A stretch of DNA of 64,000 bases. Origin: Pyrinomonadaceae bacterium (lineage in GTDB: Bacteria > Acidobacteriota > Blastocatellia > Pyrinomonadales > Pyrinomonadaceae). A program made the translations under genes and the position numbers. Shown here in pieces: positions 38,782-63,385 of the stretch. How positions within the stretch are numbered: the first letter of the stretch is position 1; each line of letters opens with the position of its first letter. Below the pieces are notes generated by a model. That model saw nothing but the letters and a program-made list of their open reading frames with translations. It had not been told where the DNA came from and did no database searches. The stretch spans positions 62,001 to 126,000 of the forward strand of contig JACMJZ010000009.1 of assembly GCA_014380365.1 (NCBI GenBank), given 5' to 3'.

Positions 38782-41436
38782 ATGTTGACCGGAATAGCAT
38801 TTTTGATTGGCGCAACTCTACTGGGCACCGGACTCGTCCGTCGTCTGGGGCCGCTCCGCCGCTCGCTTAATCACGCGGAGCAGGTGGCGTGGGGAATGGT
38901 CGTTGGCTGGATGCTTACGACGTTGGGTGCCTACGTGATAGCTCGTGTGCTCGGTCGCTTATCTTTCAGACCGATGCTGGCGTTTACCATCGCGGTCTGG
39001 ATCATCGCCGTCCTGCTCTGGCTCGAGTTGCTGCGACGCATTAGACGCGAAGATCTGCTGCTGAAGACTCTTTGGCGCCGGGAATACGCCGGACTTGCTC
39101 TCGTGCTCGCGCTGTTCGCCCCCATCTACTGGCGTCTGTTCTCGAGGCACATGCTCTGGCCCGGCGCGGGCGGCGTTTATTCTGGGGGCGGCGCCTACTA
39201 CGATTTGCCTCTGCACCTGGCGGTTAGCACTTCGTTTCTTTACGGCGGAAACTTCCCGCCCATCTACACGCCGCTCCCGCCCGAGCCGCTGCTCTACCCC
39301 TTCCTGCCCGACTTCATGACGGCCTTGCTCGCCGCACTAGGGATGAACTTCCGCTGGGCTCTGCTCTCGACCTCCATCCCGCTAGCGCTCGCCACCACTG
39401 GTCTTTTCTATCTGCTGGCCCAGCGTATCTTGTCATGCGCCGTCGCACCCGCGGTCCATGCGTCAGACGCCTCGCACCGCTCACCGTGGGGCCATGTCGC
39501 GCTCGTCCCCGCCGCGGCGGTGCTTGCGACGATCCTGTTCCTGCTCGATGGTGGCTTAGGCTTCCTTTACTTTTTCGAGGACTGGCGCACGAGCAAGCAG
39601 GGCTTTCTGGAGTTCTGGTCGCACCTGGCGACGAATTACGGCAACATGAACGTCAAGCAGATCCACTGGACGAACGTCATCTCGGACGCCTTTCTGCCGC
39701 AGCGCACTTTCCTCTTCGGCTTTCCTGTAGCCATGATGGCCTTCTCACTCTTCGCCGTTGTCTGGCACGGGGGTTGGGAAGGGAAGGGGAACGGGCGCTG
39801 GGACGGCTGGAATATTCTGCTGCCCGCGGGGGTGCTCGTCGGGCTGCTGCCGCTCTTCCACACGCACACTTACATCGCGGTCGGGCTGGTGAGCGGTTTC
39901 CTCTTCCTGCTGCGTCCCCGCGTCGCGTGGGTCGCCTTCTGGCTGCCGGCCCTGCTGCTTGCGGCCCCACACATCCTGAGCCTTACGGGGCACGTCGGCT
40001 CAATGGGCTTCATGCACATACAGCTCAACTGGAGGGGCGGCAGCAGCGGCAACTGGTTGCTGTATTGGCTACGCAACCTCGGCACACCGCTGTTGATGAT
40101 CGGCCCGGCCTGGGTGGCGGCGCCGCGCGAGTGGCGAACCTTCTACCTCGCCTTCGTGGGCTTGATGGCCTTCAGCCTGGTCGTCATTGTCTCGCCGAAC
40201 CCTTACGACAACATCAAGCTGATGTACTACTGGTACGCGGCGAGCTCAATCCTCATCGCCGCGTGGCTGGTGAGGCTGGCGCACGTCCACCGGCAGCGCC
40301 TCCTGGCCTCCCTCCTCGCCCTTAGCGCCATCGCCTCGGCGCTGCTCGCCCTCCAATATGAAGACGTGAACCGCAAGCTCGTCTTCAGCCACGAAGAAAT
40401 GGAGGCTGCCCGCTTCGTGCGCGAGAACACCGCGCCCGCCGCGCTCTTCCTGGCCGCTCCCGCCAACCATCAACCCGTCCTCAGTCTCGCCGGCCGTCCC
40501 GTCCTGCGCGGGCCCACCGCCTGGCTCTGGAGCCATGGCTACGACTTCATTCAGCGCGAGGCGGACGTCAGGGCCATCTACACTGGGAGCCCCGAAGCTC
40601 CCGAGCTGCTGAGCTATTACCGCGTTGACTTCGTCTCCCTCGGCCCGCGCGAGCGCGAGACCTTCCGCGCCGACCAGGCTTTCTTCGACGAACGCTTCCC
40701 CGTCTTCTACCATCGCGGGCAGTTGACGATCTACGACACGCGCCCGCCGGAACTGAGGATCGGCGCGGCGGTGGAGGGAGAGTACTGGGCCAAGCTCCGC
40801 GCTCCGTACGCGCCGCGCGAGTTCGCGTCGCGTGTCGGGAAAGACCCGGCGCAACTGCTCGTCGAGTTCCCGCGCGCAGCCTACGCCGTTTACCGCTATT
40901 ACCAGGTCGCGCGCGGGGGTTGGCCGGAGTACCGCGAATTCATGGAGGACATGCGCGCGCTGGGGCGCGGCGTCTACGTCGGCGCCTCGGGGTGGGAGCG
41001 CGTCCTCGAAGAGAACAAGCTTGCGCTGACGGACGCGTGGCCCACGCGTGAGGAGTTCCGCAGGTCGTTCGAGGAAGTCGGCGCAGGCGAGTTCGTAGAT
41101 GCGCTTTACACCAACGCGGGCTTGACGCCAGGCGCGTCGGAGCGCGCCGCGCACGTACGCGCGCTCGACGGCGGGGTGGAGACGCGCGCCTCCATCCTGC
41201 GCCGGGTCGCCGAAGACCCGCGGCTCCGCCGGCGCGAGCACAGCAGCGCTTTCGTGCTAATCCACTACTTCGGCTACCTCCGACGCAACCCGGATGATCC
41301 ACCCGACAACGATCTGACGGGCTTCAACTTCTGGCTGAATGAGCTGAATAGCACTGGCGACTATCGCAGCCTCAGTCGGGTGTTTATTGAGTCAGGGGAA
41401 TACAAGGATCAGTCGGCAGTCGGCAGTGGGCAGTGA
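38782..41436 (+). CDS. large membrane protein, GT-C-like, with DUF4214 C-terminus
   Basis: This 884-residue protein has an N-terminal multi-helix domain (about 1-520), a soluble middle and a C-terminal DUF4214 region ending in HYFGYLRRNPDDPPDN, close to the protein at 33002. The last eight or so residues (SAVGSGQ) are coded by the start of a heptad array and its stop codon. The stretch 39100-41280 is visibly richer in G and C than its neighbours, which may indicate a different origin. I infer a glycan or surface role. No enzymatic motif is certain. Confidence 0.8.
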   Translation: MLTGIAFLIGATLLGTGLVRRLGPLRRSLNHAEQVAWGMVVGWMLTTLGAYVIARVLGRLSFRPMLAFTIAVWIIAVLLWLELLRRIRREDLLLKTLWRREYAGLALVLALFAPIYWRLFSRHMLWPGAGGVYSGGGAYYDLPLHLAVSTSFLYGGNFPPIYTPLPPEPLLYPFLPDFMTALLAALGMNFRWALLSTSIPLALATTGLFYLLAQRILSCAVAPAVHASDASHRSPWGHVALVPAAAVLATILFLLDGGLGFLYFFEDWRTSKQGFLEFWSHLATNYGNMNVKQIHWTNVISDAFLPQRTFLFGFPVAMMAFSLFAVVWHGGWEGKGNGRWDGWNILLPAGVLVGLLPLFHTHTYIAVGLVSGFLFLLRPRVAWVAFWLPALLLAAPHILSLTGHVGSMGFMHIQLNWRGGSSGNWLLYWLRNLGTPLLMIGPAWVAAPREWRTFYLAFVGLMAFSLVVIVSPNPYDNIKLMYYWYAASSILIAAWLVRLAHVHRQRLLASLLALSAIASALLALQYEDVNRKLVFSHEEMEAARFVRENTAPAALFLAAPANHQPVLSLAGRPVLRGPTAWLWSHGYDFIQREADVRAIYTGSPEAPELLSYYRVDFVSLGPRERETFRADQAFFDERFPVFYHRGQLTIYDTRPPELRIGAAVEGEYWAKLRAPYAPREFASRVGKDPAQLLVEFPRAAYAVYRYYQVARGGWPEYREFMEDMRALGRGVYVGASGWERVLEENKLALTDAWPTREEFRRSFEEVGAGEFVDALYTNAGLTPGASERAAHVRALDGGVETRASILRRVAEDPRLRRREHSSAFVLIHYFGYLRRNPDDPPDNDLTGFNFWLNELNSTGDYRSLSRVFIESGEYKDQSAVGSGQ

Positions 41437-41458
41437 GCAGTGAGCAGTGAGCAGTGGG
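41410..41458. repeat. GCAGTGA heptad array, left half of a palindromic pair
   Basis: Tandem CAGTCGG and GCAGTGA heptads include the stop codon of the preceding gene. They face the inverse array at 41569-41613. Confidence 0.88.
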
Positions 41459-41568
41459 AGTAAAGATATTTTCCACATGTCATTTCACATTTCTCATTGG
41501 TTTGGCGCGCGATGCATCTCAATGACAGATGAAAACTGATTAAATGACAAATGGAAAATCTATATCTT

Positions 41569-41613
41569 CTGCCGACTGCCGACTGCCGACTGCCGACTGC
41601 CGACTGCCGACTC
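41569..41613. repeat. TGCCGAC heptad array, right half
   Basis: Six tandem CTGCCGA heptads, the reverse complement of the CAGTCGG units at 41410. Together the two arrays make a large inverted repeat around 41437-41568, directly before the next minus-strand gene's stop. Confidence 0.9.
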
Positions 41614-41616
41614 TCC

Positions 41617-44256
41617 TTACGGTGGGCCAAACCTTCGGCGATATTCAGCAGACTTGATAAAGGCCTTCACCATCTCTGACTTTACATAGTCTCCGTTAAA
41701 GCTATTGAGCTTATTGAGCCAGAAGTTGTAGCCGGAGAGATTGTTGTCGGGTGGATCGTCAGGATTTCTTCGCAGATATCCAAAGTATTCCATCAGGACA
41801 AAGGCGCGGTTGAGTTCGTTCATCCTGAAATAATCGGATTCGGCAATCAGGCGGAGCGCCTGTGCGCGCGTAATGATGCCGGCCTCCAGACTCCTGACGA
41901 TCATGTCGGTAACGAACAGGTTTGACGGCAGTTGGGCGCGAATCTCGCCGTTGGGAAAGTTCGTCGTATGGACGTCGACGTAAATCGAACCGCGGGACAA
42001 ATCCAGGAACTGCGAATTACTGAGCGCGGTTTGGAAGTCGACAAACTGTCCGTTGGGCAGCGTGACAATCGTGGGCGCGTTCGAGCCTGCCGTGGCTGGC
42101 CCGTGGATGTGTGCTTCCGTCTGCGCGCTGGTAAGGCCACTGAGGTAGAGCGATACAGAGATATTGGGGTGGTTTAAAGCCTGCCGCAATATGACGACGC
42201 CCGTAGCAGGCGAGCCGGTTGGCGGCACAGCCTGTGCGCCGTTGAGTCGCGCGATATACAGCTCTGCGGTCGTCGAGTTGATTTGGCCATTTCCGAAGAG
42301 CGCGAATACGTATTGCGTGTTCGTCAGGCCGGCGTATTTCGCCACGAACTCCGGGCGGGTGATGAACTCGTCAAAGAAGGCCCGCTTGTTGGCTTCTACT
42401 TGAGCGTCGGCGCCCGGCGCGCCGAAAACGAAATCTTTCTGTAGCGCCTGCACGTCGCGCATGAAGGGGCCATAGCGTGGCAGTCCGCCGAAAGCAGCCT
42501 TCTCCGTCAGGTAGGCAAGCAAACCCGTGTGTTGGAATTCAATGGAAAGGAAGAACGCGGCCGAAACGTTAATCCGCTTGAGCTCAATGCACGCTTGATC
42601 GCTTCCGCAGGATGTAATCTGATTCAACCAGAAGTTGAAACCCGCATCGTCAGGGAGTCGATTGAGGAAATCGTAATACTGCTGGCGAACGAATAGAGAC
42701 TGATCGTCGCTGGCGTTTGGCGGCTGGCCGGGCGTGTCAAACTCATTGTCCTGGATAAAGAGCTTGGCGATGCCGGGAGTCGCCAGTCCGGCGCCAGTCG
42801 CATTACTCAAAACCAGGCTCAAATCCACCGGCGTACCCCCCGCCAAATCCTTGTCTTCGACAATCAGGACCCGGAAGGTTTTGCTGGTTTCGCCAGGATT
42901 GAAAGTCAGTTTACCGAGTGCGATTTCATAGTCCGCAGACTGCATGGCCGAGCCGTCAACAGTCGCATAGTTCACAGTCGCTGTGCCCGAAACGTCGCTG
43001 CCCGAGCGCGTCACTGTGATGTCGATGTGTCCGGCGCCTTCGGAAACGAAGTAGTCCGTGGCGCTGAATTTTACAGTCGATGACGGGAACGCGGTCACCG
43101 GTTTCAACGAGCCGAACAGGCCGTGTCGTTCCGAGAAGATGCCGGCGGTAAAGTAAAGCGTGTTGGGATCACCACCATTTACGCCATTGCCGAAAGCGAG
43201 CGACCAAAGGCTATCGATGTTAAGGTTTGCGCCGCCTTCGTTCCACATTAATCCAAACTGTGCGCCGGTCGTGGGGTCAAACGCGCCAATGCTGGGGTAA
43301 AAGCCGCCGCCATCGCCGAAGTTCCCGATGAGCAACTTATTACTGAAGGCGCCGAAGTTGGCTGGCGCCAGCGCGATTCCCCACGGCGCATTCAGTGTCA
43401 CGCCGTTTGCCGCAAACGTAGTGTCGCGGACGCCGTCGGTATTGAATCTACGCACGAAGCCTCTCCCGGCTCCCTCATTCGGGCGCTGGGAGTTCGAATT
43501 AAACTCTGCGTAGGTGACGTATAGCTGCCCGCCGATGTTTTGAATATTGAACGGGTGAAAAAGTCCCGGAACGTCCTCAGCAAAGTTACCGGGAACACTC
43601 GTCAGATTAAAATCCTTGTCGAAGACGTCTATGTTCCCGTTACGGAAGTCGGCGGCGTAGAGGAGATTGCCAGACGCATTGCTGCCGATGGCCAGCCCGG
43701 TGTGCATATGGCCCTGCACAAACTTGACGACGAATGCGCCCGAACCAGAGAACGGCCGCCACGCGGTGATAACGCCCCACTCGGAGGCGAAAATGAAATG
43801 CGTCGGGGCTGGCGGAAGATCGGCGCCGCGAACGACAAAGTCGTTGGTAGTGTTGGCGACCACCGCGGTCGGCAATGTCGGCACAGGGGCAACTGTCGGT
43901 ATTGTCTCAATGCCGACGGACTGCAGCGGCGTATTCCTGACCAGCGGGCTGCCTGCGACATCTCCTTTGTAGAGGGTGGCAAGATTTTTCCCATTATTGA
44001 CAACCCAAAACGGCGAGCTGGAAGTTAACGTGGCGCCCCAGGGATTCTTGAGAAACGGATCTTCCGTGAAAGCAACTCCGGGCAGATCGGAGATAAGGTT
44101 GGTCTGACGGTAAGGGGCGACAACGAGAACTGCCTGTGGCGTCGGCGGCGCGCTCGAGACAGACGCCGTGTGCAAGCCGCTCAACAAGAGCAGGAACAAA
44201 ATCGCGATAGCAAATAGAGTTCTGGCGGGGAGGGAGTCGGATCGGTGATTCTTCAT
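41617..44256 (-). CDS. secreted TIGR03118/Calx-beta/DUF4214 protein with nested CHRD
   Basis: This 879-residue exported protein has a signal peptide (about 1-36), a TIGR03118 domain (about 40-390, YRQTNLISDLPGVA; HTGLAIG; LLYAADFRNGNIDVFD), a Calx-beta domain (about 395-505), and a DUF4214 region from about 515 onward. A CHRD domain (NGAQAVPP...HIHGPATAG...GEIRAQLP) is inserted into the DUF4214 region. It ends EYFGYLRRNPDDPPDN and FNFWLNK, as in the two membrane proteins. It is probably a cell-surface or extracellular protein. A GGAAGGGG site precedes the ATG. Confidence 0.9.
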   Translation of the reverse strand: MKNHRSDSLPARTLFAIAILFLLLLSGLHTASVSSAPPTPQAVLVVAPYRQTNLISDLPGVAFTEDPFLKNPWGATLTSSSPFWVVNNGKNLATLYKGDVAGSPLVRNTPLQSVGIETIPTVAPVPTLPTAVVANTTNDFVVRGADLPPAPTHFIFASEWGVITAWRPFSGSGAFVVKFVQGHMHTGLAIGSNASGNLLYAADFRNGNIDVFDKDFNLTSVPGNFAEDVPGLFHPFNIQNIGGQLYVTYAEFNSNSQRPNEGAGRGFVRRFNTDGVRDTTFAANGVTLNAPWGIALAPANFGAFSNKLLIGNFGDGGGFYPSIGAFDPTTGAQFGLMWNEGGANLNIDSLWSLAFGNGVNGGDPNTLYFTAGIFSERHGLFGSLKPVTAFPSSTVKFSATDYFVSEGAGHIDITVTRSGSDVSGTATVNYATVDGSAMQSADYEIALGKLTFNPGETSKTFRVLIVEDKDLAGGTPVDLSLVLSNATGAGLATPGIAKLFIQDNEFDTPGQPPNASDDQSLFVRQQYYDFLNRLPDDAGFNFWLNQITSCGSDQACIELKRINVSAAFFLSIEFQHTGLLAYLTEKAAFGGLPRYGPFMRDVQALQKDFVFGAPGADAQVEANKRAFFDEFITRPEFVAKYAGLTNTQYVFALFGNGQINSTTAELYIARLNGAQAVPPTGSPATGVVILRQALNHPNISVSLYLSGLTSAQTEAHIHGPATAGSNAPTIVTLPNGQFVDFQTALSNSQFLDLSRGSIYVDVHTTNFPNGEIRAQLPSNLFVTDMIVRSLEAGIITRAQALRLIAESDYFRMNELNRAFVLMEYFGYLRRNPDDPPDNNLSGYNFWLNKLNSFNGDYVKSEMVKAFIKSAEYRRRFGPP

Positions 44257-44342
44257 TTCACCCCTTCCTGGGTTAGTGGGAGTGCCGCCATCTTACGCTG
44301 ATCTAGTTCCAGCCGCTAGTTAGGCCCAGGCGTTCCAGTAGG

Positions 44343-44425
44343 CCAGAATTCAAGAAGTTCAGAGTTCGACCTTTAGGTTGTGCTTTGTTACCCGGACAAG
44401 CTAAAGGCTTGAACTCTGAACTCCT
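44343..44425. repeat. palindromic element of the GTTCAGAGTTC type
   Basis: An inverted repeat with arms about 44343-44375 and 44395-44425 (AGTTCAGAGTTC with GAACTCTGAACT). It is related to the GTTTAGAGTACA element at 26378. Confidence 0.7.
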
Positions 44426-44459
44426 TGGGCGCTGAGCTGGTTGAACGCTGAAGTTCAGA

Positions 44460-45512
44460 TCATGTGGCGGCGTCGATGAGACTGCTGATGACATGCTGCC
44501 AGGAGAGATTCATTGCCTTGAGTTTTTCCTGGCCGCGTTGACCCATCGCTTGAGCCCGCTGGCGGTCGGCGTAAAGCGAGTCTAAAGCCTCGGCGATGGC
44601 GCGCGGCTCGGGCTCCACGATGAAGCCTTCATGCTCGTGTTCGATAAACTCAGTGGCGCCGCCGCCGTCGTTCGCGACCACGATTGGCTTTCCTGAAAGC
44701 ATTCCCTCGAGCGTGACGTAACCATAGTCTTCATCAAAGGGCAGATAACAGACGCCGAGCGAGTTTGCATAAAGCTCGATCATCTCCGACTCCGAAACGA
44801 AACCTCGCAGACTCACGCGATCACCGACGCCATGCTTCTTCGCCAACGACTCGTAATGTTGCGCGTTGCCCGAGCCTCCCGCGAACACGATTTTCACCGG
44901 CGTGCGCAGGTATTGCGCGGCCTCGATCAAAAGCTCCTGTCGTTTCTGCGGTTCCAGCCGGCTTGGGTAAAAGATGTAGTCTCCCTGTTCGCGGCAGCGC
45001 AGGCGTTCGGCGCGCGGAGGCGGATGATAGAGCGGCGCACTTTCGATCTTATTGTAACGACGGAGCCGGTCGGCGACAGTTTGAGAGTTTGCAAAAACTT
45101 TCTTCGCTTCCGGAATGAAACGGCTGTCACAATCCCGAATCCATTCGCGCACGCGCGGCCCATCCGGGTAAGTTGAAAGATCGTCGAAGGGAGTGTTCCA
45201 GAGATTGTAGGCGGAGCGGTGTTGATGAATGATCCAGAGAACTTTGCGCTCATGCGCCACCAGATAAGCAGGAAACTTCATTCCGATCACCAGATCGACG
45301 GGCTTGCCATTCGCCTCGCCCAGATCGAGCATCCGCCAGGCCAGCGCGCTGCGCATGATCTCTTCGGGCGGATACCACTTGAACGGCAGGGCAACCACCT
45401 CGGCGTTGTAGCCGGCCTCGATAAAGGCGCGTCGCAGTCCCTCCACATGTGACTCCGCGCCGCCGCTAGTGAAGGGGACCTGGGTGGTGCAGATGAGAAT
45501 GTTGCGAAGCAT
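44460..45512 (-). CDS. GT4 family glycosyltransferase
   Basis: This 350-residue cytoplasmic GT-B enzyme has an N-terminal QVPFTSGGAESHVEGLRRAF segment (acceptor side) and a C-terminal nucleotide-sugar site with SRLEPQKRQELLIEAA and the EGMLSGKPIVVANDGGGATEFI helix typical of GT4. It probably adds a sugar to the surface glycan from a nucleotide donor. It is the last gene of a same-strand run that starts with the Wzt-like ATPase at 49212. Confidence 0.93.
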   Translation of the reverse strand: MLRNILICTTQVPFTSGGAESHVEGLRRAFIEAGYNAEVVALPFKWYPPEEIMRSALAWRMLDLGEANGKPVDLVIGMKFPAYLVAHERKVLWIIHQHRSAYNLWNTPFDDLSTYPDGPRVREWIRDCDSRFIPEAKKVFANSQTVADRLRRYNKIESAPLYHPPPRAERLRCREQGDYIFYPSRLEPQKRQELLIEAAQYLRTPVKIVFAGGSGNAQHYESLAKKHGVGDRVSLRGFVSESEMIELYANSLGVCYLPFDEDYGYVTLEGMLSGKPIVVANDGGGATEFIEHEHEGFIVEPEPRAIAEALDSLYADRQRAQAMGQRGQEKLKAMNLSWQHVISSLIDAAT

Positions 45513-45521
45513 AGAAAGACA

Positions 45522-45637
45522 GAGATCAGAAGTCAGAAGTCAGAGGTCGGAGATCAGAGGTCAGCTGTCATGGAGTTCTGACTCCGATTTCCTATCTCTG
45601 CCTTCTGACCGCTGATCTCTGACCTCTGACTTCTGAA
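45522..45637. repeat. palindromic GTCAGA heptad arrays
   Basis: Left GTCAGAA/GATCAGA heptads (45522-45568) face right CTGACC/TCTGACT heptads (45599-45637). The right arm is inside the methyltransferase C-terminus and supplies about 25 low-complexity residues. Confidence 0.88.
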
Positions 45638-46979
45638 TTACGATATTGCAGACCGCGACTGACAGCTCACGATCGTCGCGTGTTTCGTCGTTCGTGGGGC
45701 GCGGCTGCCACGTGCGTTCGGCGCGCAACTCAAGTTCAAATTCATCGGCAACTGTTGCGCTAATCGTCTCCGGGACTGGAACACGCAACTCGAGCCAGCC
45801 ATACCGGCAAAGGGAGAAGGCGCACAGTTTTACTCCGTTCAGGAAAAGTTCGAGCCCGAGCGCACGCTCGTCCAGCCCGGGCATGTGTGTGGCGAGATCG
45901 AGTCGGATTTCGGTAAGCCGCGATGATCGGAAACGCACGCGACCGCTGCGGTTCATCCAGCGCGCAACTGGCGGCAGCAGGTTTGGTTCGTACCAGCCGT
46001 CGTCGAAAGTAACTTCGTGATTTCGATCCAGGCAAACAGTTTCGCTCTCCGCAGCCTCAAACGTTTCGACCTTGGTTTCCGTGGATGAAAACAGCGCGCT
46101 ACGCGAACGGTGCTCATTGTAGAAAGCACCAAGCGGCACATCGGAAGCCTTCAGGAAAACATACAGTCCGCTTGGCGGTAGGCGAAGATTGAGATCCGAG
46201 ATCTTGTTAAAGACGTAGCCCATTGCCATATCGAAGGCCCGGCGCTCACTAAACGAAAGGGTACGCAGGTAGTCGAGGAAATCGTCTTCGAAGGGCAGTC
46301 CATACTTGTCCGCCTGTTTGAGAAATTCTTCGCTGCTGAGGTTGAGCGCGTAGCGCGGCTCCCAGGCAACATGCGCGAAGAACCGTCGAAATCTTGCCGC
46401 GTGCTCTTCTTCTTCCTCCAGTCCGACATGGCCATCCACTTCAATGAAGCGGCGCAACTCGTCTGGTTCCATTTCGTCGTAACTTTTCCGCGCGCTATGG
46501 TCAGTGCACTCAATGCCGTGCATGGTTACGCCGCCGGGTCGCAACACGCGCTTCACTTCGGCGAGCACTGCATCCTTTTCTTCGAAGTCGACGTGACCAA
46601 TTACATCGAGACTCACAACGTAGTCGAAGCTCGCATCGGGGAAAGGCAGTTGAGAAAGTTCAGCGCGGTAGGTTGCGTCATAGCCGTTGCGGCGGGCTGC
46701 TAAAGCACACTCATTTGAGATGTCAACGCCCGTCAACGTCACTCCCTTTCGTTTCAACAGGGCCAGCATGCCTGCGCCGCAACCAAGATCAAGCACCGAG
46801 GAGCCTTCGCGCACGTTGTCGTAAACCCACATCGTGCGGGCAAAGCGAATGTCGAAACGGTCGAGTGCCTTGAAGTAGCGTTCGTCAAGCACCTCATCCG
46901 AAACAAACTTCGTGCGATAAAACTCGGCCAGGTCGTCGATGCCGGCGCGTTGATACAGATTGTCTTTTGGTGCAGGCAT
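45561..46979 (-). CDS. class I SAM methyltransferase with repeat-coded tail
   Basis: This 472-residue cytoplasmic protein has a Rossmann-like methyltransferase core (SSVLDLGCGAGMLALL, TGVDIS) at about 60-200, then an unfamiliar beta-rich C-terminal half, perhaps a sugar- or acceptor-binding domain. The last 25 or so residues (KSEVRDQRSEGRDRK...) are coded by heptad repeats and look added rather than conserved. It probably methylates a glycan or its carrier. It is in the same-strand run with Wzt, the coiled-coil protein and the GT4. Confidence 0.85.
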   Translation of the reverse strand: MPAPKDNLYQRAGIDDLAEFYRTKFVSDEVLDERYFKALDRFDIRFARTMWVYDNVREGSSVLDLGCGAGMLALLKRKGVTLTGVDISNECALAARRNGYDATYRAELSQLPFPDASFDYVVSLDVIGHVDFEEKDAVLAEVKRVLRPGGVTMHGIECTDHSARKSYDEMEPDELRRFIEVDGHVGLEEEEEHAARFRRFFAHVAWEPRYALNLSSEEFLKQADKYGLPFEDDFLDYLRTLSFSERRAFDMAMGYVFNKISDLNLRLPPSGLYVFLKASDVPLGAFYNEHRSRSALFSSTETKVETFEAAESETVCLDRNHEVTFDDGWYEPNLLPPVARWMNRSGRVRFRSSRLTEIRLDLATHMPGLDERALGLELFLNGVKLCAFSLCRYGWLELRVPVPETISATVADEFELELRAERTWQPRPTNDETRDDRELSVAVCNIVIQKSEVRDQRSEGRDRKSESELHDS

Positions 46980-46984
46980 AGGGG

Positions 46985-47052
46985 AAAGTCAGAAGTCAGA
47001 AGTCAGAAGTCAGGAGTCAGAATTCACGAACTACAGACTTCGGACTGCAGAC
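46985..47052. repeat. GTCAGAA heptad array with partial inverse
   Basis: Four to five GTCAGAA heptads are followed by CAGACTTCGGACTGCAG-like inverse units, filling the gap between the methyltransferase start and the coiled-coil gene end. Confidence 0.85.
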
Positions 47053-49251: not shown

Positions 49252-49360
49252 GCTTCGCGCACCTTTGCGCAGACTTTGCGACCTTTGCGGTTTATGTGTT
49301 CTGCCTTGGACAAAGCCAAACCGCAAAGAACGCAAAGGGTACGCAAAGGATCGCAAAGGA
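49252..49360. repeat. CGCAAAG heptad palindrome
   Basis: CTTTGCG units (49262-49296) face CGCAAAG units (49321-49360), forming an inverted repeat in the gap between Wzt and the TIGR03118 gene. No gene is inside. Confidence 0.85.
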
Positions 49361-49418: not shown

Positions 49419-52243
49419 TTAGTTTGGGCCGAAGCGTTGCCGATACTCGAGGGAACCGATGAAAGCCTTCACCATCTCGGCGTTAATGAAGTTGCCGTTG
49501 AAGGCATTCAGTTTGTTGAGCCAGAAGTTGAAGCCGGCCGTGTCCGGATCGCGCCGGAGATAGCCGAAGTATTCCATCAACACGAAGGCCTTGTTGAATT
49601 CGAGGTTTTTCAGCTCCTCTTGTTCAGAGACTTTCCGCAGCACTGTGGCCCGCGTTTCTGTCGCCGCATTCAGGCCCGCCACCAGCGCATCGCGGAAAGC
49701 GCTTTCCGTCGGGAAATTCCCGCGGATTTCGCCACCAGCGAATTGCGTGGTGTGGAAGTTGATGTACGCGCGCCCATTTCGAAGGTTCGCAAGTTGAGCC
49801 GCAAGCGTAGTCCCGTTGCCTTCGGGCGCGTCCCACTTACCGCTGAAGAAACCGCCAACTCCGCTGGCGAACGGCGTGAACACCTGGTCGTTCGGGTTGT
49901 TATCGTTGAACGGAGTACTGAAGAAACCCCAGACGACTGGCCCATTGACGCCCGGCGCCACGGCTGCACCGGCATGGATGTGGGCCGCGGACAAGTTGTC
50001 GTTCCCGTCGCTCGTCTGCGAACGCGTGATGTCGATATTGTTGACTGTGGCCGTGAACGTCATGGCTGTCTGCGCGGCGTTGAATTGGAACTTCGCCGTG
50101 CCGAATGACGCCGGCCTGGCGCCTCCCGCTGCCAGGGTGGGTACCGCGGGCGGAACCTCCTGACCATTGGTCATATTCACGACGAAGAGACGCACCTCGC
50201 TCGGTGATAAATTTGCCGATGCGAGCAGGTTGTCCACATATTGGGCGTTAGTCAGACTCGCCGGGTATTTCGTGACGAACTCAGGACGAGCAACAAACTC
50301 GTTGTAGAAGGCCACCTTGTTAGCTTCCAACTGCGCGTCAGCACCGGCCTGACCGACAATGACGTCGCGATTAATAGCCTGCAAATCGCGCATGAACGTG
50401 CCGTAAAAGACAGGCGCCGGCGAGCCGCCAATGGTGGGGCCGTAAGCGGCCCGGTGTGTTAGATAAGCAGCCAGCCCCGAGTTCTGAAACTCGATGGACA
50501 GGAAGAAGGCCGCCGACACATTGATGCGCTTGACTGCAATGCAGCCGGCGTCTGAGCCGCACGAGGTAATCTGCGCCGTCCAAAAGGCGAGGCCGGCTGC
50601 GTCGGGCTCGCGGTTGAGGAAGTCGAGATAATGCTGCCGTACGAAAAACTGGGCGGCGTCAATGGGATTGGTCGTTGGCGCCACAGCATCGTTGTCGGTG
50701 ATCGTCAGCGTGGCAGCGTTGGGACTGCCCAGCCCCACTAAGCTGCCGGTAACATTGCTCAGCACCAGGTTCACCGTCTCCGCGCCTTCTTCAAAGGTGT
50801 CGTCAACGATCAGGATTCTGAAAGACTTGCTCGTCTCTCCGGGTGCAAAAGTAAGTTTGCCGAGCTCGATTTCGTAGTCAGATTTCTGCGAGGCATTACC
50901 GGGAGCGCTTTGATCGAATGTCGCATAGTTAACCGAGGCGGAATTCGAAGCGTCGCCGTCACGTGTGACGGTAATCTGGATGCTTCCGCTGCCCTCGCCG
51001 ATGACGTAGCTGTCCGTGCTGAACTGAATGAGTGAAGTGGCCGAAGCGGTGGTCGGCTTGAGCGATCCGAAGAGGCCATGCTCTTCTCGAACAATCCCCG
51101 CGGCGAAGTAGAGCGTGTTGACGTCGCCGCCATTGCCGCCGTTACCAAACGTGAGTGCCCACAGTTCATCGATCTCGATACCCTCGCCCGCCTCGTTCTG
51201 GACCGTGCCGAGGAAGGCCCCGGTGGTCGGGTTGAAGGCGTGGATGCTCGGGTTGCCCCTCCCGAAGTTGCCGATGAGCAGCGCGCCGCCGAAGATCCCG
51301 AAGCTGGCCGGCGCTACCGTCACCCCCCAGGGCGAGTTGAGCGGGCCGTTGTTGATACCGAACGTCAGGTCGCGGACGCCGTCGGTGTTGAACCGCCGCA
51401 CGAACCCGTTGCCGACGCCCTCCTCTTGAAGTCCGCCCACGCCCACCTTGGCGTAGGTGACGTACAGCGGGAAGGTCCCGCCGAGGTTCTGGATGTTGTG
51501 CGGATGATAAGTGTTCCCCGCAGTTTGCGGGATGGTCGGATCTACGAATCCGCCGGTCGTAGTTGTGAGCGCGAAGCTGGTGTTGTAGACGTCAATATTG
51601 CCATTCGCGAAGTCGGCGGCGTAGAGTCGATTTCCTCCGCCGTTGGTGCCGTAGGCGAGGCCCAGGTAGACGCGTCCGGGGTGGCTCGCGCGATGACTGC
51701 GGTGGTCGAGCCTGCTGCGGGGGCGTTCGGGTCCCAGCCTGAGATGTTGCCAGTGATGGAGGCGAAGATGAAATTCGCCCCGCACGGCGCGGCGGCACAG
51801 GCGCCAGGGAGAACAAACTCCGTTGCTACGGGATTCGAGACCGTGCCCGTCGGCAATCCGCCGGGAACAGTAATACCAGCCAAGCCCGGGTTCTTTACAA
51901 ATGGAGTCGTAGCAGTTTCACGATACAGAGTAGACGTACTCGTCCCGGCGTTTGCCACCCAAAACGGACTGGAACCTGTTAGCGAGATTCCCCAGGGATT
52001 GACCAACAGCGGATCCTGGATAGTTGCGACGCCGGGCAGATCCGAAACGTGATTCGTCTGCCTGTACGCCGATCCCGGCGCAATGACTGGAATGGCGTCA
52101 GGTGCAATTCCGTCTCCCGGCGACTGTGCGACGGTTCGCGGCCCGGATGAAACGCCGGGCAGCATTAGGATGTAGAGAGCAAGACTCAGCATCACGCTGA
52201 GCAGTTTTCTAGCCGATTGATTTTTTGATTGCTGGTGAAACAT
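49419..52243 (-). pseudogene. TIGR03118/Calx-beta/DUF4214 secreted protein, frameshifted
   Basis: Two overlapping frames, 51542-52243 (signal peptide and TIGR03118 start) and 49419-51785 (the rest), together match one protein like that at 41617: TIGR03118, Calx-beta, DUF4214 with a nested CHRD domain (HIHAGAAVAPG) and the C-terminus EYFGYLRRDPDTAGFNFWLNK. The frames join near 51678-51681, where a run of four G (four C on the coding strand) seems to have lost one base: five C would give TPGRVYLGLAYG. This could be a real inactivating change, programmed slippage or a sequencing error. The segment about 51150-51480 is noticeably G+C rich. Confidence 0.85.
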
Positions 52244-56862: not shown

Positions 56863-56868
56863 TTACCG

Positions 56869-56896
56869 GGCAGAAGCCCGCGCGTCAGCAAGGGCT
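56869..56896. repeat. single arm of the AGCAGAAGCCCG repeat
   Basis: This 28-bp segment matches the reverse complement of the right arm at 4231-4258 except for its first base. It directly follows the matrixin stop. Confidence 0.85.
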
Positions 56897-57012
56897 CCGT
56901 CTTACCTCGCTTGCACGACTTCCAAGCAGAGTTAAATCGATCCACGCTTGTCCTCCCTTTCCAACTGCCATACATTGAAGACGCTCCAACTAAAACTGTC
57001 TGCCGCCGGCGA

Positions 57013-58011: not shown

Positions 58012-58021
58012 GTAGTGGCAC

Positions 58022-58157
58022 GAGCGGGGGCAAGCCCGCCTTCCCAACTGAGAGACATTCCCCCTCGTTCAGCTGATCCGAGTTGGAACACTGCAAGGGC
58101 GAAATAGAATCAACTATGATCCGCTCTCAGGTGGGGAAGGCGGGCTTGCCCCCGCTC
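58022..58157. repeat. palindromic element family C, copy 2
   Basis: Arms 58022-58046 and 58132-58157 (core GAGCGGGGGCAAGC) form a long inverted repeat in the gap between the methyltransferase and the permease. It is related to the element at 36512. Confidence 0.85.
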
Positions 58158-58185
58158 TTACTCTTCCGCTTACAATGCACTTTCG

Positions 58186-59010
58186 ATGATCTCAGCCCAA
58201 ACAGCACGACGCGCGGTCTGGCGACCCCTCTGGGAACTCCCGCGCCAGTTTGAATTAATCCTAATGCTCGCGCGTCGCGAGCTGCTCGCGCGTTACAAAG
58301 GCTCGGCCCTCGGGATCATCTGGGCCCTGGTGACTCCGGTCGTAACCATCGCCATCTTCACGTTCATCTTCGCCGGACTCTTTGGCGCACGCTTCGGCGC
58401 CCGCGGCACCTCCTGGGACTACGCGCTTTATCTATTCTGCGGCTTGTTGCCCTGGACAATGTTTCAGGAAACGCTGCAACAGTCGTCAACTACGATCGTC
58501 ACTCATGCGAACCTGGTGAAGCGCGTCATCTTTCCGCTTGAAACGTTGCCGGTCGCTCAAGCGTTAGCGGCCTTGGGCAATCAGATGTTCGGAACGCTCG
58601 CCCTGCTGGTGGCAACTCTCGTCGTCAATCATCAATTACACGTTACGATTCTTTGGCTGCCAGTCCTGGTTATTCCGCAGTTCATTGCCACGCTCGGCGC
58701 CGCCTGGCTGGTGGCGTCTCTCGGCGTATTTTGGCGCGACATTGCACAGGGCCTTGCGCTCGTGTTGATGGCCTGGATGTTCCTGACCCCGATTATTTAC
58801 CCGGAATCGATCGTACCAGAACGTTACCGGCCCTTCATCAATGCGAATCCGTTCACCGCGCTCGTGCGCAGCTATCGCCGCATCTTCCTCGAAGGCGCCG
58901 GTCCCGATTGGCGCGGCGTTGCATTCTTCACAGCCTTCGCCGCCGTCCTGTTTGTTTTTGGTTACTGGTGGTTCGCTAAAACCCGCCGCAACTTCGCCGA
59001 CGTAATTTGA
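58186..59010 (+). CDS. Wzm-like ABC-2 transporter permease for polysaccharide export
   Basis: This 274-residue inner-membrane protein has six hydrophobic helices and the ABC-2 family layout. LARRELLARYKGSALGIIWA is the N-terminal amphipathic helix typical of Wzm/TagG-type permeases. ATPase partner candidates nearby are limited to the Wzt-like gene at 47824, on the other strand. Together they would export the glycan built by the glycosyltransferases of this region. Confidence 0.9.
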   Translation: MISAQTARRAVWRPLWELPRQFELILMLARRELLARYKGSALGIIWALVTPVVTIAIFTFIFAGLFGARFGARGTSWDYALYLFCGLLPWTMFQETLQQSSTTIVTHANLVKRVIFPLETLPVAQALAALGNQMFGTLALLVATLVVNHQLHVTILWLPVLVIPQFIATLGAAWLVASLGVFWRDIAQGLALVLMAWMFLTPIIYPESIVPERYRPFINANPFTALVRSYRRIFLEGAGPDWRGVAFFTAFAAVLFVFGYWWFAKTRRNFADVI

Positions 59011-59031
59011 AAGGTCACAATCCGAATGTGC

Positions 59032-60534
59032 CTACCGCGGATTTCCTGTGTGCTTATTGTTCATAGGCGACAGCACCACCACAATCCCCATTAGCCACCA
59101 GAATACCAGCGCGACTTCGCCGTCGCCGAAGTTGTAATTGACCAATGAGCTGGCGAAGAAGCCTGCGATTGCGCCGGTGGCGCCGAGCAAAATGCCATAG
59201 CGGTTGGTATCGCTCGAATCGCGCAACGATTTTTCCCCGCGCGAGGCGGTGCGCCAGAATATCCACATGATCCAAAGCCAGAAGACAAGCGCGGGCAGAC
59301 CGCGATCGAAAGCTAACTGTAGCGGAGTTGAATGCAGGTGAAGCAGGTCTTTGCCGGGGAAGCCCCACTCGTTCCAATGCGCCTGCATCGCGTCCATGCC
59401 GTGTCCGAAGAGGGGGTGAAGCATGACGCGACCCAGCCCAACCTTCGCCACCTGTGCGCGCAGCGAAGAGCTGTCGTCTTGCAACCACAACGCATCCCGG
59501 GCACGAGTTTGATAGACAACAAACGCGCCTACAGATAGAAGTATCAGAAGACTCGCAAGGCTTATTACCCTGGCTCTTCTGCCGAGCGCGCGGAAACTGA
59601 TCACACAAGCGCCGATAGCAAAAGCTACCAATACGGTCCGCATGGCCGTCAACGCGACCCCCAAAGCGATTACTATCACCGCCGCAAAGGCCAACCGGGA
59701 CCAACGATTGAAGCGGTGGTTGTTGAAGTTTGCCAGAGCAAGACCGAAGGCCAGTTGGGCCAGGATCTGCAGGATCTCCGCATAGGTGGAGTAGTGACGC
59801 GTCCATCCCGAAGCGCGAAATCTGTGAGTTGCTTTATGACCTATGATCCCCGAGGGCGAAGCGCGCGCTTTAGTCGCCTCGCTGACGACGAGCCCCGGTC
59901 GCTCCACGTGTTCGCCCAAAGAGATCACGCTAATGCTTACACTTTGTCCGACGACTAACCCGCTAATGATCTGGTCGATCTCAACGACCGAGCCGATACG
60001 CCGCCCACCCACGCGCCACACAGCATCTCCCGGACCTACGTGCAACCGTTGTAAAGGACTGTCCGGAGAGATTGATTCGACAACAATGCCGCGTCCCCTC
60101 GCCAGGTCATAGAGACTGTAAGCTGTTCCCGCCACGCCCGAGAGGATCATTACCGCTACCAACCAAACCGCGATGCGTCGGGTGACGATTGCCTGCGTCA
60201 GGTAAAAAAGGAAGATCACGCAGGTTGACTGGATCTTCGCGATGCTGATGCGCGGTTCCTCGGAAAGGAAACACGAGGCGACAGTCCAGAAAAAAAACAG
60301 CCAGATGGGAAGGTCGAATCGAGTGCGGCGCAGTCCCGTCTCTCGCGTAGCGATTGTGCGAGTCAGCCAGCCGCCGGCGGCAATGGCCAGCGAGATTTCG
60401 GCGGCAGCGATCGAGTGGGGCGCAAAAGCCGAAAACAGGAGCATCCCACCCACGGCAACCCCTTGCCCCAGGCGCGACCATGAGGCCGGTTTCGAGGCGG
60501 TTAGAGATTTGCTGGGCGGGTGTTCTGGTTGCAT
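59032..60534 (-). CDS. O-antigen ligase-like protein with PDZ-like insert
   Basis: This 500-residue membrane protein has about ten helices and the WaaL/O-antigen ligase layout, including a late periplasmic loop with GHGMDAMQAHWNEWG. Between helices (about residues 148-218) is a segment resembling a PDZ domain: VVESISPDSPLQRLHVGPGD, then VGGRRIGSVVEI. Such an insert is unusual for ligases and might bind a partner or peptide. The family joins completed glycans to lipid A-core or other carriers. It is convergent with the permease. Confidence 0.85.
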   Translation of the reverse strand: MQPEHPPSKSLTASKPASWSRLGQGVAVGGMLLFSAFAPHSIAAAEISLAIAAGGWLTRTIATRETGLRRTRFDLPIWLFFFWTVASCFLSEEPRISIAKIQSTCVIFLFYLTQAIVTRRIAVWLVAVMILSGVAGTAYSLYDLARGRGIVVESISPDSPLQRLHVGPGDAVWRVGGRRIGSVVEIDQIISGLVVGQSVSISVISLGEHVERPGLVVSEATKARASPSGIIGHKATHRFRASGWTRHYSTYAEILQILAQLAFGLALANFNNHRFNRWSRLAFAAVIVIALGVALTAMRTVLVAFAIGACVISFRALGRRARVISLASLLILLSVGAFVVYQTRARDALWLQDDSSSLRAQVAKVGLGRVMLHPLFGHGMDAMQAHWNEWGFPGKDLLHLHSTPLQLAFDRGLPALVFWLWIMWIFWRTASRGEKSLRDSSDTNRYGILLGATGAIAGFFASSLVNYNFGDGEVALVFWWLMGIVVVLSPMNNKHTGNPR

Positions 60535-60965
60535 CTGGCAAACGAAGACTTATACCAAGTGGGTCGACAAAGTCAGAACCCCGACTCGTCGGGGCAGCGA
60601 CCGGATAACATCAAACAAGCAACGTGGGACGAATAAATCAGAACCGGGAGCGGTAGCGACCGGGTGATTGGTTCGTAAGAACAATCAGCGGAGTGTCTCA
60701 CCCGGTCGCTACCGCTCCCGGTTCTGATTTTGTGGGCGACCAACGGGCTTTGTGCCTGGGTGTGTTGACTCCGGCGCATCATATCGCCATTGACCTTGCG
60801 AAAACGACTCCGTTGACAGCGATATTTTGGGCGTGTTAGCGTAGCTTTTAGCTTTTTCCCGTGGGAAAAAAGCTACCGCCCTGGCAAGTGTTTCATTATT
60901 CCCCCTGGTTAACCCGCCCTTGCGTTTGACTCCGCTCCCATACTTGATGGTACATAATACTCCTG
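60535..60965. promoter_or_regulatory. 431-bp repeat-rich gap
   Basis: This gap holds a partial repeat block at 60568-60606, a perfect 32-bp inverted repeat at 60635-60730 and a smaller hairpin at about 60841-60881. The TPR gene promoter should lie in the final 60 bp. TTGACT at 60926 and a possible -10 near 60953 are poorly spaced. Confidence 0.5.
60635..60730. repeat. perfect 32-bp inverted repeat, family D
   Basis: Arms 60635-60666 and 60699-60730 are perfect reverse complements separated by 32 bp. They start with TCAGAACCGGGAGCGGTAGC. A partial single arm lies at 60568-60606. Confidence 0.95.
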
Positions 60966-63296
60966 ATGGCTTTCGAAAAAGCGAAGGTTCTAAAGGCCGC
61001 TGAGAAATTCCTTTCGCAAGGAAAGATTCCCGCCGCCATTAAAGAGTATCGTCAAATCGTTGATAACGATCCGGACGATCTCACCGCTCTCAACATGTTG
61101 GGAGATCTTTTGGCGCGCGCCGGTGAAAAGGAGGAAGCCGTTACTTGCTTCACAGGCATCGCAGATCACTTTCGTGAACAGGGATTCTTTACGAAAGCCA
61201 TCGCGATGTACCGGAAGATCGAGAAACTAAAACCTCGCGATCCCGCAACAGCAAGCAAGCTTGCTGATCTCTACGCCAATCAAGGCCTGGTTGTTGATGC
61301 CCGCGCGCAGTATCTCGTAGTTTCCGATGCTTATACGAAAGCCGGCGATACGAAGCGAAGTCTGGAGGTGCTGCATAAGATCGCGGACCTCGACGGGCAG
61401 AACACCGAAGTACGACTCAAGCTTGCGGAGGGTTACCTGAAAGAGCACATGCAGGCTGATGCGGCCAAGGCGTTTACCGAGGCCGCCACTCGCATGTTCG
61501 AAAATGGTGAGTATGAAAAGGCGCTCGCTGCCTTCTCGCGGGCGCGCGAACTTCGCCCTAACGATAGGGCCGTCCTCAAGGGATTGGTTTCTGCTCACAC
61601 AGCTTTGGGCGCGGCCGACGATGCGGCTGAACTCCTGGAGAAGGCCATTGCGGACGGGGCTGACGATCCCGACGTCGCTGTGATGCTCGCGCAGGCTTAC
61701 ATCGATGCAGAAGACGCCGCAGGTGCGGAACGCATCACCGGTCTGATCGTGGCGGAAGATTCGAGAGAGTATCGACGTTATGCGGAAGTGGCTCGACTCT
61801 ATCTGAAACTGGGTAATGACAACGATGCAGCCAGAGTTCTGGGGGTCATTACTGAAACGATGCTGGCGGGTCGCGAAGAAAACGACCTGCTCGAACTGGT
61901 CAACGAGGTTCTGGCACGCGCCCCAGAACAAGTGGCTAGTCTACGTTTACTCTCGAGAATTTACTGGTGGCAACGCGATACTGAGAACCTTCGCTCAGCC
62001 CTCGAACGCCTGGCTGAGTCGGCTGAAACTGCCGGACTCGACGATGACGAGCGCTATGCTCTGACGCAACTCGTTCGTCTCGCGCCCGATGAACCACGTT
62101 TTGTGGAGCGTTTGACCGCGCTGGGAGGTTTTATAGATGAACCCTCCGAAGCACCCAATCCGGCGCGCGATCCTTCGTTAGCTGGCGTGCCCTCCTTTGA
62201 AAGCTTTGCCATTATCAGCGACGCTGCGCCTGAGGTGCCGCACACGCCGGCTGCGGGGACGAGCGTCTCAGATGAGTTTGAATTTAACTCGGTGACGGAT
62301 GAACGAGTTTCTGACGCCAGCGCTTCTTTTGCCGATCTGAATGATGAGATTGAGGACAACCAGGCAGGAAGTAAACTGGTGCCTGACGCGACGTCGCCCG
62401 GCCCCGCCTCGAGCTTATTCAAGTTCGATGATGGATCCGAGCAGCCGCCGGCGATGGAGAAGCGAAGTGCTTCCAGCGTTGAGGCTCTCCTGCGGCAGGA
62501 ACTCGAGAGCGTGGATTTTTACATTACGCAGGGCTATTCCGACATTGCCCTCGACACGCTGGAGCTGTTGGAGCGGCAAGTTGGCTCTCATCCGGAAATC
62601 ACTGCCCGAAGAGAACAGCTTGCGGCAGGAAAGCCGGGCGTTTCAGTTGCGGACACTTTTTCGGCTGGTTCTGAGGTTGTCACGAGTGGTTCGCAGCTTG
62701 ACGCTGGAATAGAGTCAACGGTCGACATCACCTTGGGTGAGTTAGATGGTTCCGGCCTGGCGCGAGAGAAATCTCCGACGGTTGAAAGATCGCCAACGGT
62801 GGTCTCAAGCGGGATCGATTCCGGGCTCGCCGAAATCTTCGAGGAATTTCGTCTTGAAGCTGAGGAAGACGACTCGTCGCCTACTGAGGACTTTGAAACT
62901 CACTACAACATGGCAACTGCTTACCAGGAGATGGAACTCCTTGACGAGGCCATCCGCGAGTTTCAAACCGCCGCGGGTTTAGCCAGTCCGGTCGACGGCA
63001 CGGCCAAATACTTCCAATGCTGTAACATGCTTGGCCACTGCTTTGTCAAAAAGGACATGCCGCAGGCAGCGGTCATTTGGTTTAAGAAGGGCCTCGAATC
63101 TCCTGGCCGCAGCGCGGAAGAATACACAGCCTTGCAGTATGAACTCGGTTCCGCCTACGAGCACATGGGCGACCTGACGCGCGCCGAGGCAGTGTTTACC
63201 GAGGTCTACGGTGTAGACGTTGGCTATCGCGATATTGCCGACAGGCTCCATGCTCTTCAGGTGCGCAAGATGGAGAAGAAAAAGAAGAAGCGTTAG
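60966..63296 (+). CDS. soluble TPR-repeat protein
   Basis: This 776-residue cytoplasmic protein has no signal peptide. The N-terminal 340 residues contain about eight TPR-like helix pairs (for example AIKEYRQIVDNDPDDLTALNMLGDLLARAG and AIAMYRKIEKLKPRDPATASKLADLYANQG). An acidic low-complexity middle (about 390-600) and a last TPR block (about 645-750) follow. The protein ends in a Lys tail. It is probably a scaffold. Its partners are not evident. No ribosome site is visible. Confidence 0.82.
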   Translation: MAFEKAKVLKAAEKFLSQGKIPAAIKEYRQIVDNDPDDLTALNMLGDLLARAGEKEEAVTCFTGIADHFREQGFFTKAIAMYRKIEKLKPRDPATASKLADLYANQGLVVDARAQYLVVSDAYTKAGDTKRSLEVLHKIADLDGQNTEVRLKLAEGYLKEHMQADAAKAFTEAATRMFENGEYEKALAAFSRARELRPNDRAVLKGLVSAHTALGAADDAAELLEKAIADGADDPDVAVMLAQAYIDAEDAAGAERITGLIVAEDSREYRRYAEVARLYLKLGNDNDAARVLGVITETMLAGREENDLLELVNEVLARAPEQVASLRLLSRIYWWQRDTENLRSALERLAESAETAGLDDDERYALTQLVRLAPDEPRFVERLTALGGFIDEPSEAPNPARDPSLAGVPSFESFAIISDAAPEVPHTPAAGTSVSDEFEFNSVTDERVSDASASFADLNDEIEDNQAGSKLVPDATSPGPASSLFKFDDGSEQPPAMEKRSASSVEALLRQELESVDFYITQGYSDIALDTLELLERQVGSHPEITARREQLAAGKPGVSVADTFSAGSEVVTSGSQLDAGIESTVDITLGELDGSGLAREKSPTVERSPTVVSSGIDSGLAEIFEEFRLEAEEDDSSPTEDFETHYNMATAYQEMELLDEAIREFQTAAGLASPVDGTAKYFQCCNMLGHCFVKKDMPQAAVIWFKKGLESPGRSAEEYTALQYELGSAYEHMGDLTRAEAVFTEVYGVDVGYRDIADRLHALQVRKMEKKKKKR

Positions 63297-63298
63297 AA

Positions 63299-63385
63299 GG
63301 CAGTGAATAGTGAATGGTAAATAGTAAATAGTCGTTCGGTTCACCTGGTTTTGACTATTCACTCTTTACCATTCACTATTTACCA
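63299..63385. repeat. AGTGAAT/AGTAAAT heptad palindrome
   Basis: Left heptads AGTGAAT/GGTAAAT/AGTAAAT (63302-63332) face the inverse TATTCAC/CATTCACTATTTACC units (63354-63384) in the gap between the TPR gene and the small membrane gene. Confidence 0.88.

Follow-up and report, generated by a model that had tools for sequence, protein, structure and literature searches.

A 64-kb stretch of the genome of a Pyrinomonadaceae bacterium (contig JACMJZ010000009.1, positions 62,001 to 126,000; 55% G+C; hereafter the window) contains hairpins in which an array of tandem heptads (7-nt units) faces an inverse array of the same heptad. In the host genome, the heptad differs between hairpin families, but within a family the same arm always comes first. 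It is well supported by sequence comparison that these hairpins arise at the DNA level as insertions. The findings point to a polar DNA-level process, and simple repeat slippage does not explain the order of the arms. The fixed arm order is a hard constraint for any proposed mechanism and can be tested at the bench.

Arrays were scored by a self-match scan, and segments scoring at least 13 were retained. The window holds 15 segments of period 7 and, because 14 is a multiple of 7, 14 segments of period 14, whereas no other period between 4 and 20 yielded more than one segment. Tandem Repeats Finder reported the same arrays. Five shuffles of the window gave no segment at any period from 5 to 11, an Rfam search had no match, and a tRNA search found none. 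Five strong facing pairs (arms starting at 23074/23124, 25669/25764, 41410/41569, 45520/45597, and 63302/63353) bear out the 7-bp period and the facing inverse arrays claimed in a preliminary description of this DNA. The heptads named there also exist. However, the GTCAGTG array lies outside the region to which it had been assigned and has no inverse partner, the inverse of the GTCAGAA array is weak, and the CGCAAAG repeat has a period of ~10, not 7. Nor are all loci intergenic as had been stated: the arrays at 22317-22398, 23074-23155, 25412-25444, and 25669-25794 lie inside open reading frames (ORFs) for an ImuB-like protein and for the polymerase DnaE2.

The scan was extended to 1.64 Mb of the 4.98-Mb host genome (G000; other genomes are likewise referred to by G numbers). 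This sample contains 132 arrays of period 7, compared with 0-17 for each of the other periods between 2 and 12. Inverse arrays within 300 bp face 89 of the 132, forming 61 hairpins that merge into 55 loci (hairpins within 150 bp of each other being joined) and belong to 25 heptad families; the remaining 43 arrays have no inverse partner. The AAAGTCC heptad occurs at 12 merged loci. According to a custom simple gene caller, which was applied to G000 and G004, 34 arrays lie in or overlap genes and 98 lie outside them. Of the latter, 80 are in co-directional gaps (208 kb in total), 9 in convergent gaps (52 kb), and 9 in divergent gaps (65 kb). In other words, the host genome displays the excess of tandem heptads over other unit lengths, mainly outside genes, that characterizes heptameric long simple sequence repeats (LSSR) and short tandemly repeated repetitive sequences (STRR). 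A single-array slippage product without a partner does not describe these loci, because 89 of the 132 arrays are paired and their order is fixed. They also differ from intrinsic terminators in that array density is lower in convergent gaps than in co-directional ones, with T-runs judged by eye only. The arrays are clustered on the chromosome, for example at 100-119 kb and 262-282 kb of host contig C5, and long stretches such as C5 119-233 kb are free of them.

Pairing is far above chance. Pairing was compared with controls in a 0.86-Mb subsample made up of the window and two 400-kb stretches. Within 250 bp, an inverse match with a score of at least 14 accompanied 63 of its 89 arrays, whereas the rate was 8.0% for the flanks of other arrays and 0.7% for random places. 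A direct match instead of an inverse one was found for 8 of the 89. The pairing test that the preliminary description had proposed thus came out in its favor, and random expectation fails. An assembly artefact is also unlikely because many genomes assembled independently of one another contain arrays of this kind. On the basis of shuffles, flank controls, and recurrence in other genomes, both explanations were rejected.

A further regularity concerns the order of the arms. A pair of arms built on heptad w can read either w...rc(w) or rc(w)...w, where rc denotes the reverse complement. In the host genome, ten families are represented at two or more loci (40 in total), and each keeps the same arm first without exception; by our own arithmetic, and with families taken as independent, the chance of this is ~2^-30. 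The left unit contains at least four purines at 44 of the 55 loci, a bias that is weak when counted per family (18 of 25, p=0.04). Class-wide searches, which were limited to exact matches and loops of 0-30 nt, gave the same picture for GTCAG and GTCCAA. Of 162 genomes, 52 have GTCAGNNGTCAG...CTGACNNCTGAC pairs (close GTCAG...CTGAC pairs) and none has the reverse order; for GTCCAAN pairs, the corresponding numbers are 23 and 0 of 158 genomes. CAGGTT-first pairs, from the control columns of these searches, had 8 matches in 7 genomes and no reversed match. The phenomenon is not confined to the class. Among the matches listed, contigs with GTCAG pairs belong to Cyanobacteria, Acidobacteria, Planctomycetes, Verrucomicrobia, Bacteroidetes, Gemmatimonadetes, Chloroflexi, and others, and include contigs of Pyrinomonadaceae and Blastocatellia. 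Fetched by the GTCAG pattern, 117 stretches from many phyla contained 112 further period-7 arrays outside the matched pairs (at most 22 for other periods from 4 to 12), and 41 of these 112 arrays were paired.

How are the two arms of a hairpin related to each other? If one arm were a recent inverse copy of the other, the order of variant units should be mirrored. None of 25 array pairs showed a mirrored order at p<0.05, although in many of them the test had little variation to work with, and on this ground recent inverse copying was rejected. The longest strings shared within loci averaged 14.4, compared with 14.5 after unit shuffling (n=55 loci), and in each of the seven families tested, strings shared between loci were about as long as after shuffling. 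A pooled test over 54 hairpins gave z 3.6, but this value is biased because the right arm was delimited by the alignment itself. For five of the eight heptads examined, most of the variation among units falls in one or two columns: column 4 of AGTGATG (0.34), column 7 of AGTTTCG (0.35), columns 7 and 1 of GTCAGAG (0.32 and 0.16), columns 7 and 1 of GTCAGAA (0.36 and 0.25), and columns 7 and 4 of GTCCAAA (0.18 and 0.13). In the other three, variation is spread over most columns (AGGCAGA), concentrated only weakly (GTCAGTG), or almost absent (CAGTCGG). The unmirrored unit order and the distribution of variation over the columns constitute the outcome of the mutation-spectrum check that had been proposed. 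Loops appear equally individual in the host genome. Matches of at least 15 nt elsewhere were found for 11 of 37 loops and for 32% of control windows, so an origin of the loops as captured genomic DNA was rejected. Only 5 of 100 same-family loop pairs scored at least 12, and some of these come from hairpins nested within a single locus. In a separate observation made by eye, two apparently orthologous GTCCAA hairpins (L325 on G009:C152 and L326 on G010:C289) have loops that seem inverted relative to their flanks, as expected from template switching or from recombination between the arms.

Evidence for insertion comes from DnaE2, whose gene follows the ImuB-like ORF, with a RecA-like ImuA candidate upstream. 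The DnaE2 loci of the genus (13 in the alignment, three of them, G002, G007, and G013, partial) differ at three sites. Site 1 was assigned in 12 loci, all but G002. Paired GTCCAAA arrays are present there in G000, G004, G007, G010, G012, and G013; G008 and G014 each have a single array, and G003, G005, G006, and G015 have no such array. At site 2, GTCCAAA is found in G000 (a single array) and G004, whereas different repeats are found in G002, G010, and G012; G005 and G014 have no insert, and the remaining loci carry inserts of other kinds. Site 3, which is covered in 10 loci and lies outside the coverage of the three others, has GTCCAAA repeats in G000, G004, G010, and G012 (with a degenerate left arm in G012), a short non-heptad sequence in G008 and G014, and nothing of the kind in G003, G005, and G015. 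In G006, locus L332 has an in-frame REPIN-like GTAG...CTAC palindrome at site 3, in the position occupied by heptad repeats in other species. At site 1, the empty orthologue of G006 reads GTCC-AAAAACGC, and the G000 hairpin can be placed between these two parts. The site-1 loop is missing from this orthologue and is therefore not native by this comparison.

The reading frame stays open across the sites in all 12 loci examined at site 1 and all 10 covering site 3. By construction, the check returned only lengths divisible by three, and the open frame is what counts; the G013 segment at site 1 was shortened by the search motif. Arrays deep in called genes have heptads that are free of stop codons on both strands in 17 of 20 cases, compared with 52 of 112 other arrays (p=0.0014), a difference that arises partly by construction for the sense strand and to which the two genes of the window contribute 8 of the 20 arrays. 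On the alignment, the repeats in DnaE2 behave as in-frame insertions, being absent or replaced by unrelated repeats in relatives. The hairpins add ~30-55 residues each to this mutagenic polymerase and thereby create new protein segments in this lineage.

Gaps between orthologous genes show how quickly the hairpins change. A methyltransferase gene (45561-46979) and a glycosyltransferase gene (44460-45512) of the window were placed in 14 relatives and adjoin each other in 12. The gap between them holds GTCAGAG in G012 and G149, GTCAGTG in G004 and G151, TTTTGAT in G007, AGTCTGG in G002, and TCTAATC in G153; of the rest, G013 has mixed hairpins, G088 hairpins of other kinds, G001 one arm, G009 a remnant, and G008 a small stem only. 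In G001, G002, G007, G009, and G013, the flanking genes are 82-92% identical, yet the contents of the gap differ, except for a loop common to G001 and G007. Hairpin turnover, as estimated from these comparisons, is faster than that of the flanking genes.

Occupancy of this gap in most relatives raised the possibility of a conserved hairpin site. As a control, gaps were compared between G000 and G004 at 54 conserved gene pairs that are adjacent in both genomes (median protein identity 74%). In the 36 pairs with gaps of at least 40 bp in both genomes, a hairpin was present in both for 11, in G000 only for 11, in G004 only for 8, and in neither for 6. Some hairpin, often not built from heptads, thus occurs in 22 of 36 gaps in G000 and 19 of 36 in G004, and the idea of a conserved site was dropped on these numbers. 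Because hairpins are common and their presence is uncorrelated between the genomes, their position is no evidence of selection. At the RNA level, selected pairing in mRNA should favor G.U pairs over A.C mismatches on the transcribed strand. No G.U excess was found for heptad hairpins in co-directional gaps, either in G000 (48 G.U and 62 A.C in 34 hairpins, p=0.22) or in G004 (25 and 23 in 17 hairpins, p=0.89). Such hairpins fill their gaps: the median distance to the preceding stop codon is 0 bp, and that to the following start is 9 bp. Selection for RNA structure was rejected because of the null G.U test and the uncorrelated occupancy of orthologous gaps.

What process could create such hairpins? 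One tentative possibility, preferred here although it is itself doubtful, is that both 3' ends at a break or gap would be extended by repeated synthesis of one heptad, and that the extended ends would be joined via a short filler, the later loop. Each 3' end would receive the same strand, and the top strand would consequently read heptads, loop, and reverse-complement heptads; under such end extension, the arm order is fixed for this reason. The arms might afterwards lengthen or shorten independently by 7-nt slippage, and within genes only in-frame, stop-free insertions would survive. End extension is preferred because it would explain the fixed order, the unshared loops, and the independently built arms at once. 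One-sided extension would leave single arrays, which could be why these are common (43 of 132). A bolder version, which must be considered highly improbable, is a dedicated polar, telomerase-like repair process in several phyla that would add heptads onto both broken 3' ends from a single-stranded template. If it were true, it would give the fixed order, unique loops, and independently built arms together, and recurring heptads with one or two free columns would reflect misreading at one template position.

Several observations weigh against end extension. The model relies on a hypothetical heptad-adding activity and a hypothetical template, identical heptads at many loci could stem from copying, and the empty DnaE2 orthologues, including that of G006, could also be deletions. 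Arm order is not absolute for every heptad, since CAGTC pairs occur in both orders class-wide (15 GACTG-first and 2 CAGTC-first). The window's own CAGTC pair is CAGTC-first, with a longer loop than the class-wide search range. Mixed order was also seen in two of eight families with several pairs in the stretches from many phyla. Arms 30 nt long are identical in 3 of 10 loci of G018 (L290, L293, and L296), and L290 and L294 share a 30-nt left arm with the same variant units. The pooled z for mirrored order is 3.0 in G018, 0.4 in G019, 3.1 in G088/G025, and 1.3 in the GTCCAA set. Loop pairs sharing 6-mers number 16 of 45 in G018, 20 of 45 in G019, and 22 of 28 in G088/G025, with shuffle means of 5.1, 6.7, and 8.9. 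Given the identical or shared arms and the shared loop 6-mers, copying of finished units may act in these genomes. The preliminary description had ascribed the arrays to a common mechanism and not to sequence descent. A common mechanism agrees with the shared period, pairing, and fixed arm order of 25 heptad families and with the host genome, in which sharing of unit order or loops between loci does not exceed that in controls except in a few cases of overlap or nesting. The exclusion of descent is not established, as heptads recur at many loci and across the class, GTCAG pairs occur in several phyla, and arms and loops are shared in the genomes just mentioned.

Copying of whole units is the essence of a rival view, in which the hairpins would be small non-autonomous mobile elements, similar to REPINs or miniature inverted-repeat transposable elements (MITEs), that a transposase, perhaps one of the Y1/RAYT type, moves in finished form. 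Copying of the unit would keep the order fixed, and loops would diverge or be exchanged later. Filled and empty sites, the REPIN-like palindrome at DnaE2 site 3 of G006, the arm shared by two G018 loci, and the 6-mer-sharing loops are consistent with it, and the Y1 transposase family has a match in 139 of 162 genomes, the host included. However, GTCAG pairs show no clear association with Y1, being present in 46 of the 139 genomes with a match and 6 of the 23 without (three unlisted ones by elimination); the six are all drafts that are 87-93% complete. Arm length is widely variable, no conserved ends were seen, and loops and unit order are not common to different loci of the host genome beyond controls. 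This view is rather doubtful.

An unlikely alternative is slippage combined with strand foldback: polymerase slippage would make the direct arrays, and template switching by foldback would copy them as the inverse array, with the order fixed by a restriction of foldback to the purine-rich strand. Passages of PMC4692102 and PMC4679880 name period 7 as the commonest long simple repeat in many bacteria and explain it by slippage, an idea reported for 7-nt units in the latter. The purine-rich left units at 44 of 55 loci and the identical arms and pooled z of G018 also fit. Foldback, however, should leave a native loop, whereas the DnaE2 site-1 loop is missing from the empty orthologue; neither the 25 array pairs nor the 55 loci show mirrored unit order, the purine bias is weak per family, and recurring heptad sequences are left unexplained. 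Slippage alone does not predict that arrays face inverse partners, nor that the order would stay unreversed throughout 162 genomes for GTCAG and 158 for GTCCAA. Finally, hairpins might be retained for a role in mRNA stability, termination, or translation between co-directional genes, with heptads as easy building material. The higher density of arrays in co-directional gaps argues for such a role, as does the methyltransferase/glycosyltransferase gap, which holds some hairpin in most relatives despite differing heptads. It is nevertheless very unlikely in view of the missing G.U excess in G000 and G004, the uncorrelated presence in the 36 orthologous gaps, and the occurrence of the same units within coding sequence.

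Table 1. Heptad arrays, related repeats, and associated genes in the window
Feature	Position	Strand	Basis
ImuA candidate, RecA-like	20329..21165	+	ImuA model 48.8 bits, below cut-off 150
ImuB-like ORF	21223..22698	+	IMS domain 24.8 bits, cut-off 23.2
AAACAGC array in ImuB-like ORF, no inverse partner	22317..22355	+	self-match scan
AATTCGA array in ImuB-like ORF	22366..22398	+	Tandem Repeats Finder + self-match scan
DnaE2, three in-frame repeat insertions	22852..26352	+	NCBIfam 'error-prone DNA polymerase' 1197.6 bits, cut-off 939
Left arm GTCCAAA, DnaE2 site 1	23074..23108	+	
Right arm (inverse of GTCCAAA), DnaE2 site 1	23124..23155	+	
AAAGTCC array, single, DnaE2 site 2	25412..25444	+	
Left arm AGTCCAA, two adjoining arrays, DnaE2 site 3	25669..25733	+	
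Right arm GACTTTG (inverse), DnaE2 site 3	25764..25794	+	
GTCAGTG array, unpaired (best inverse score 6)	29803..29835	+	
Left arm CAGTCGG/CAGTGAG, between convergent genes	41410..41458	+	
Inner hairpin, AAATG-type repeats, nested within CAGTCGG pair	41468..41559	+	score 14.5; fold
Right arm CTGCCGA (inverse)	41569..41612	+	
Left arm CAGAGGT (GTCAGAG family)	45520..45570	+	
Right arm (inverse of CAGAGGT)	45597..45639	+	
GTCAGAA array, then weak inverse to ~47060	46986..47026	+	inverse score 11.5
CTTTGCG...CGCAAAG inverse pair, period ~10, related hairpin type, no heptad	49253..49360	+	
Left arm AGTGAAT	63302..63332	+	
Right arm (inverse of AGTGAAT)	63353..63383	+	

Other repeats accompany these features. 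Between the ImuB-like ORF and DnaE2 (22700-22835) lies an inverse pair of CGCAGATTA-type repeats with period 9. A hairpin with GTTCAGAG... arms occupies 44340-44430, and similar GTTCAGAGTACAAGCTTTAGCTTGC... hairpins recur between genes in the host genome and G004. A very long non-heptad intergenic hairpin is found at 36500-36730 (RNA fold of 36500-36780, -148.6 kcal/mol). A GCAAAG...CTTTGC hairpin is cleanly present in G001 (C22 51825-51987) and absent from G009 (C312); compared with the window's CTTTGCG pair, its arms come in the reverse order. Two large proteins of shared make-up (CHRD, Calx-beta, DUF4214), encoded at 41617-44256 and 49419-51785, each adjoin a hairpin. A 276-bp unit repeated in tandem at 1826-3700 (6.8 copies, 82% matches) probably encodes repeated protein domains.

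Small hairpins dispersed between genes are known as REPIN/RAYT elements and as Rickettsia palindromic elements, the latter also occurring in frame inside genes. Those elements are copies of a conserved sequence, whereas the hairpins described here have arms of tandem heptads and loops that are unshared in the host genome. By eye, the listed heptad hairpins have no common end or loop of the kind seen in GTAG/CTAC-tagged REPIN palindromes. The top-ranked open-licence literature contained no paper on heptad hairpins in Acidobacteriota. More generally, passages of PMC4060949 describe inverted repeats as widely over-represented and discuss template switching, and passages of PMC4692102 cite an over-representation of heptamers in many bacteria.

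Among the closest counterparts are the GGGAATC heptamers of Xanthomonas, for which passages of Rehm et al. 2015 (PMC4692102) report 70 and 75 convergent close array pairs in two genomes. According to those passages, the arrays are intergenic and differ in length and sequence between related genomes; their convergent orientation amounts to a single arm order in which the G-rich arm leads. Host loci likewise consist of two facing arrays of one heptad in constant order, CAGTC being the exception. In Xanthomonas, however, there is one heptad, which forms G-quadruplexes and tends to occur in four units, and the loci are called stable in the same passages, whereas 25 families are present here and are rapidly replaced. 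The main heptads here, GTCCAAA and GTCAGAG, have no runs of three Gs. The passages on Xanthomonas do not mention in-frame insertion into a polymerase, and the same source gives only few convergent pairs for Nostoc. TAACTGA heptads of marine Beggiatoaceae, as described in passages of PMC4679880, form 169 direct sets near start codons. They are similar in being intergenic heptad arrays, found in distant phyla, but differ in having almost no inverse pairs (one). In Nostoc, the P6b stem of the trnL intron is, in passages of PMC4476775, always built on one of two heptads (TDNGATT or NNTGAGT) with repeated replacement of one by the other. This stem belongs to a ribozyme at a single intron locus, unlike the dispersed loci described here, but it is likewise a hairpin built from heptads, and NNTGAGT fits the AGTNATG family found here, including its free column.

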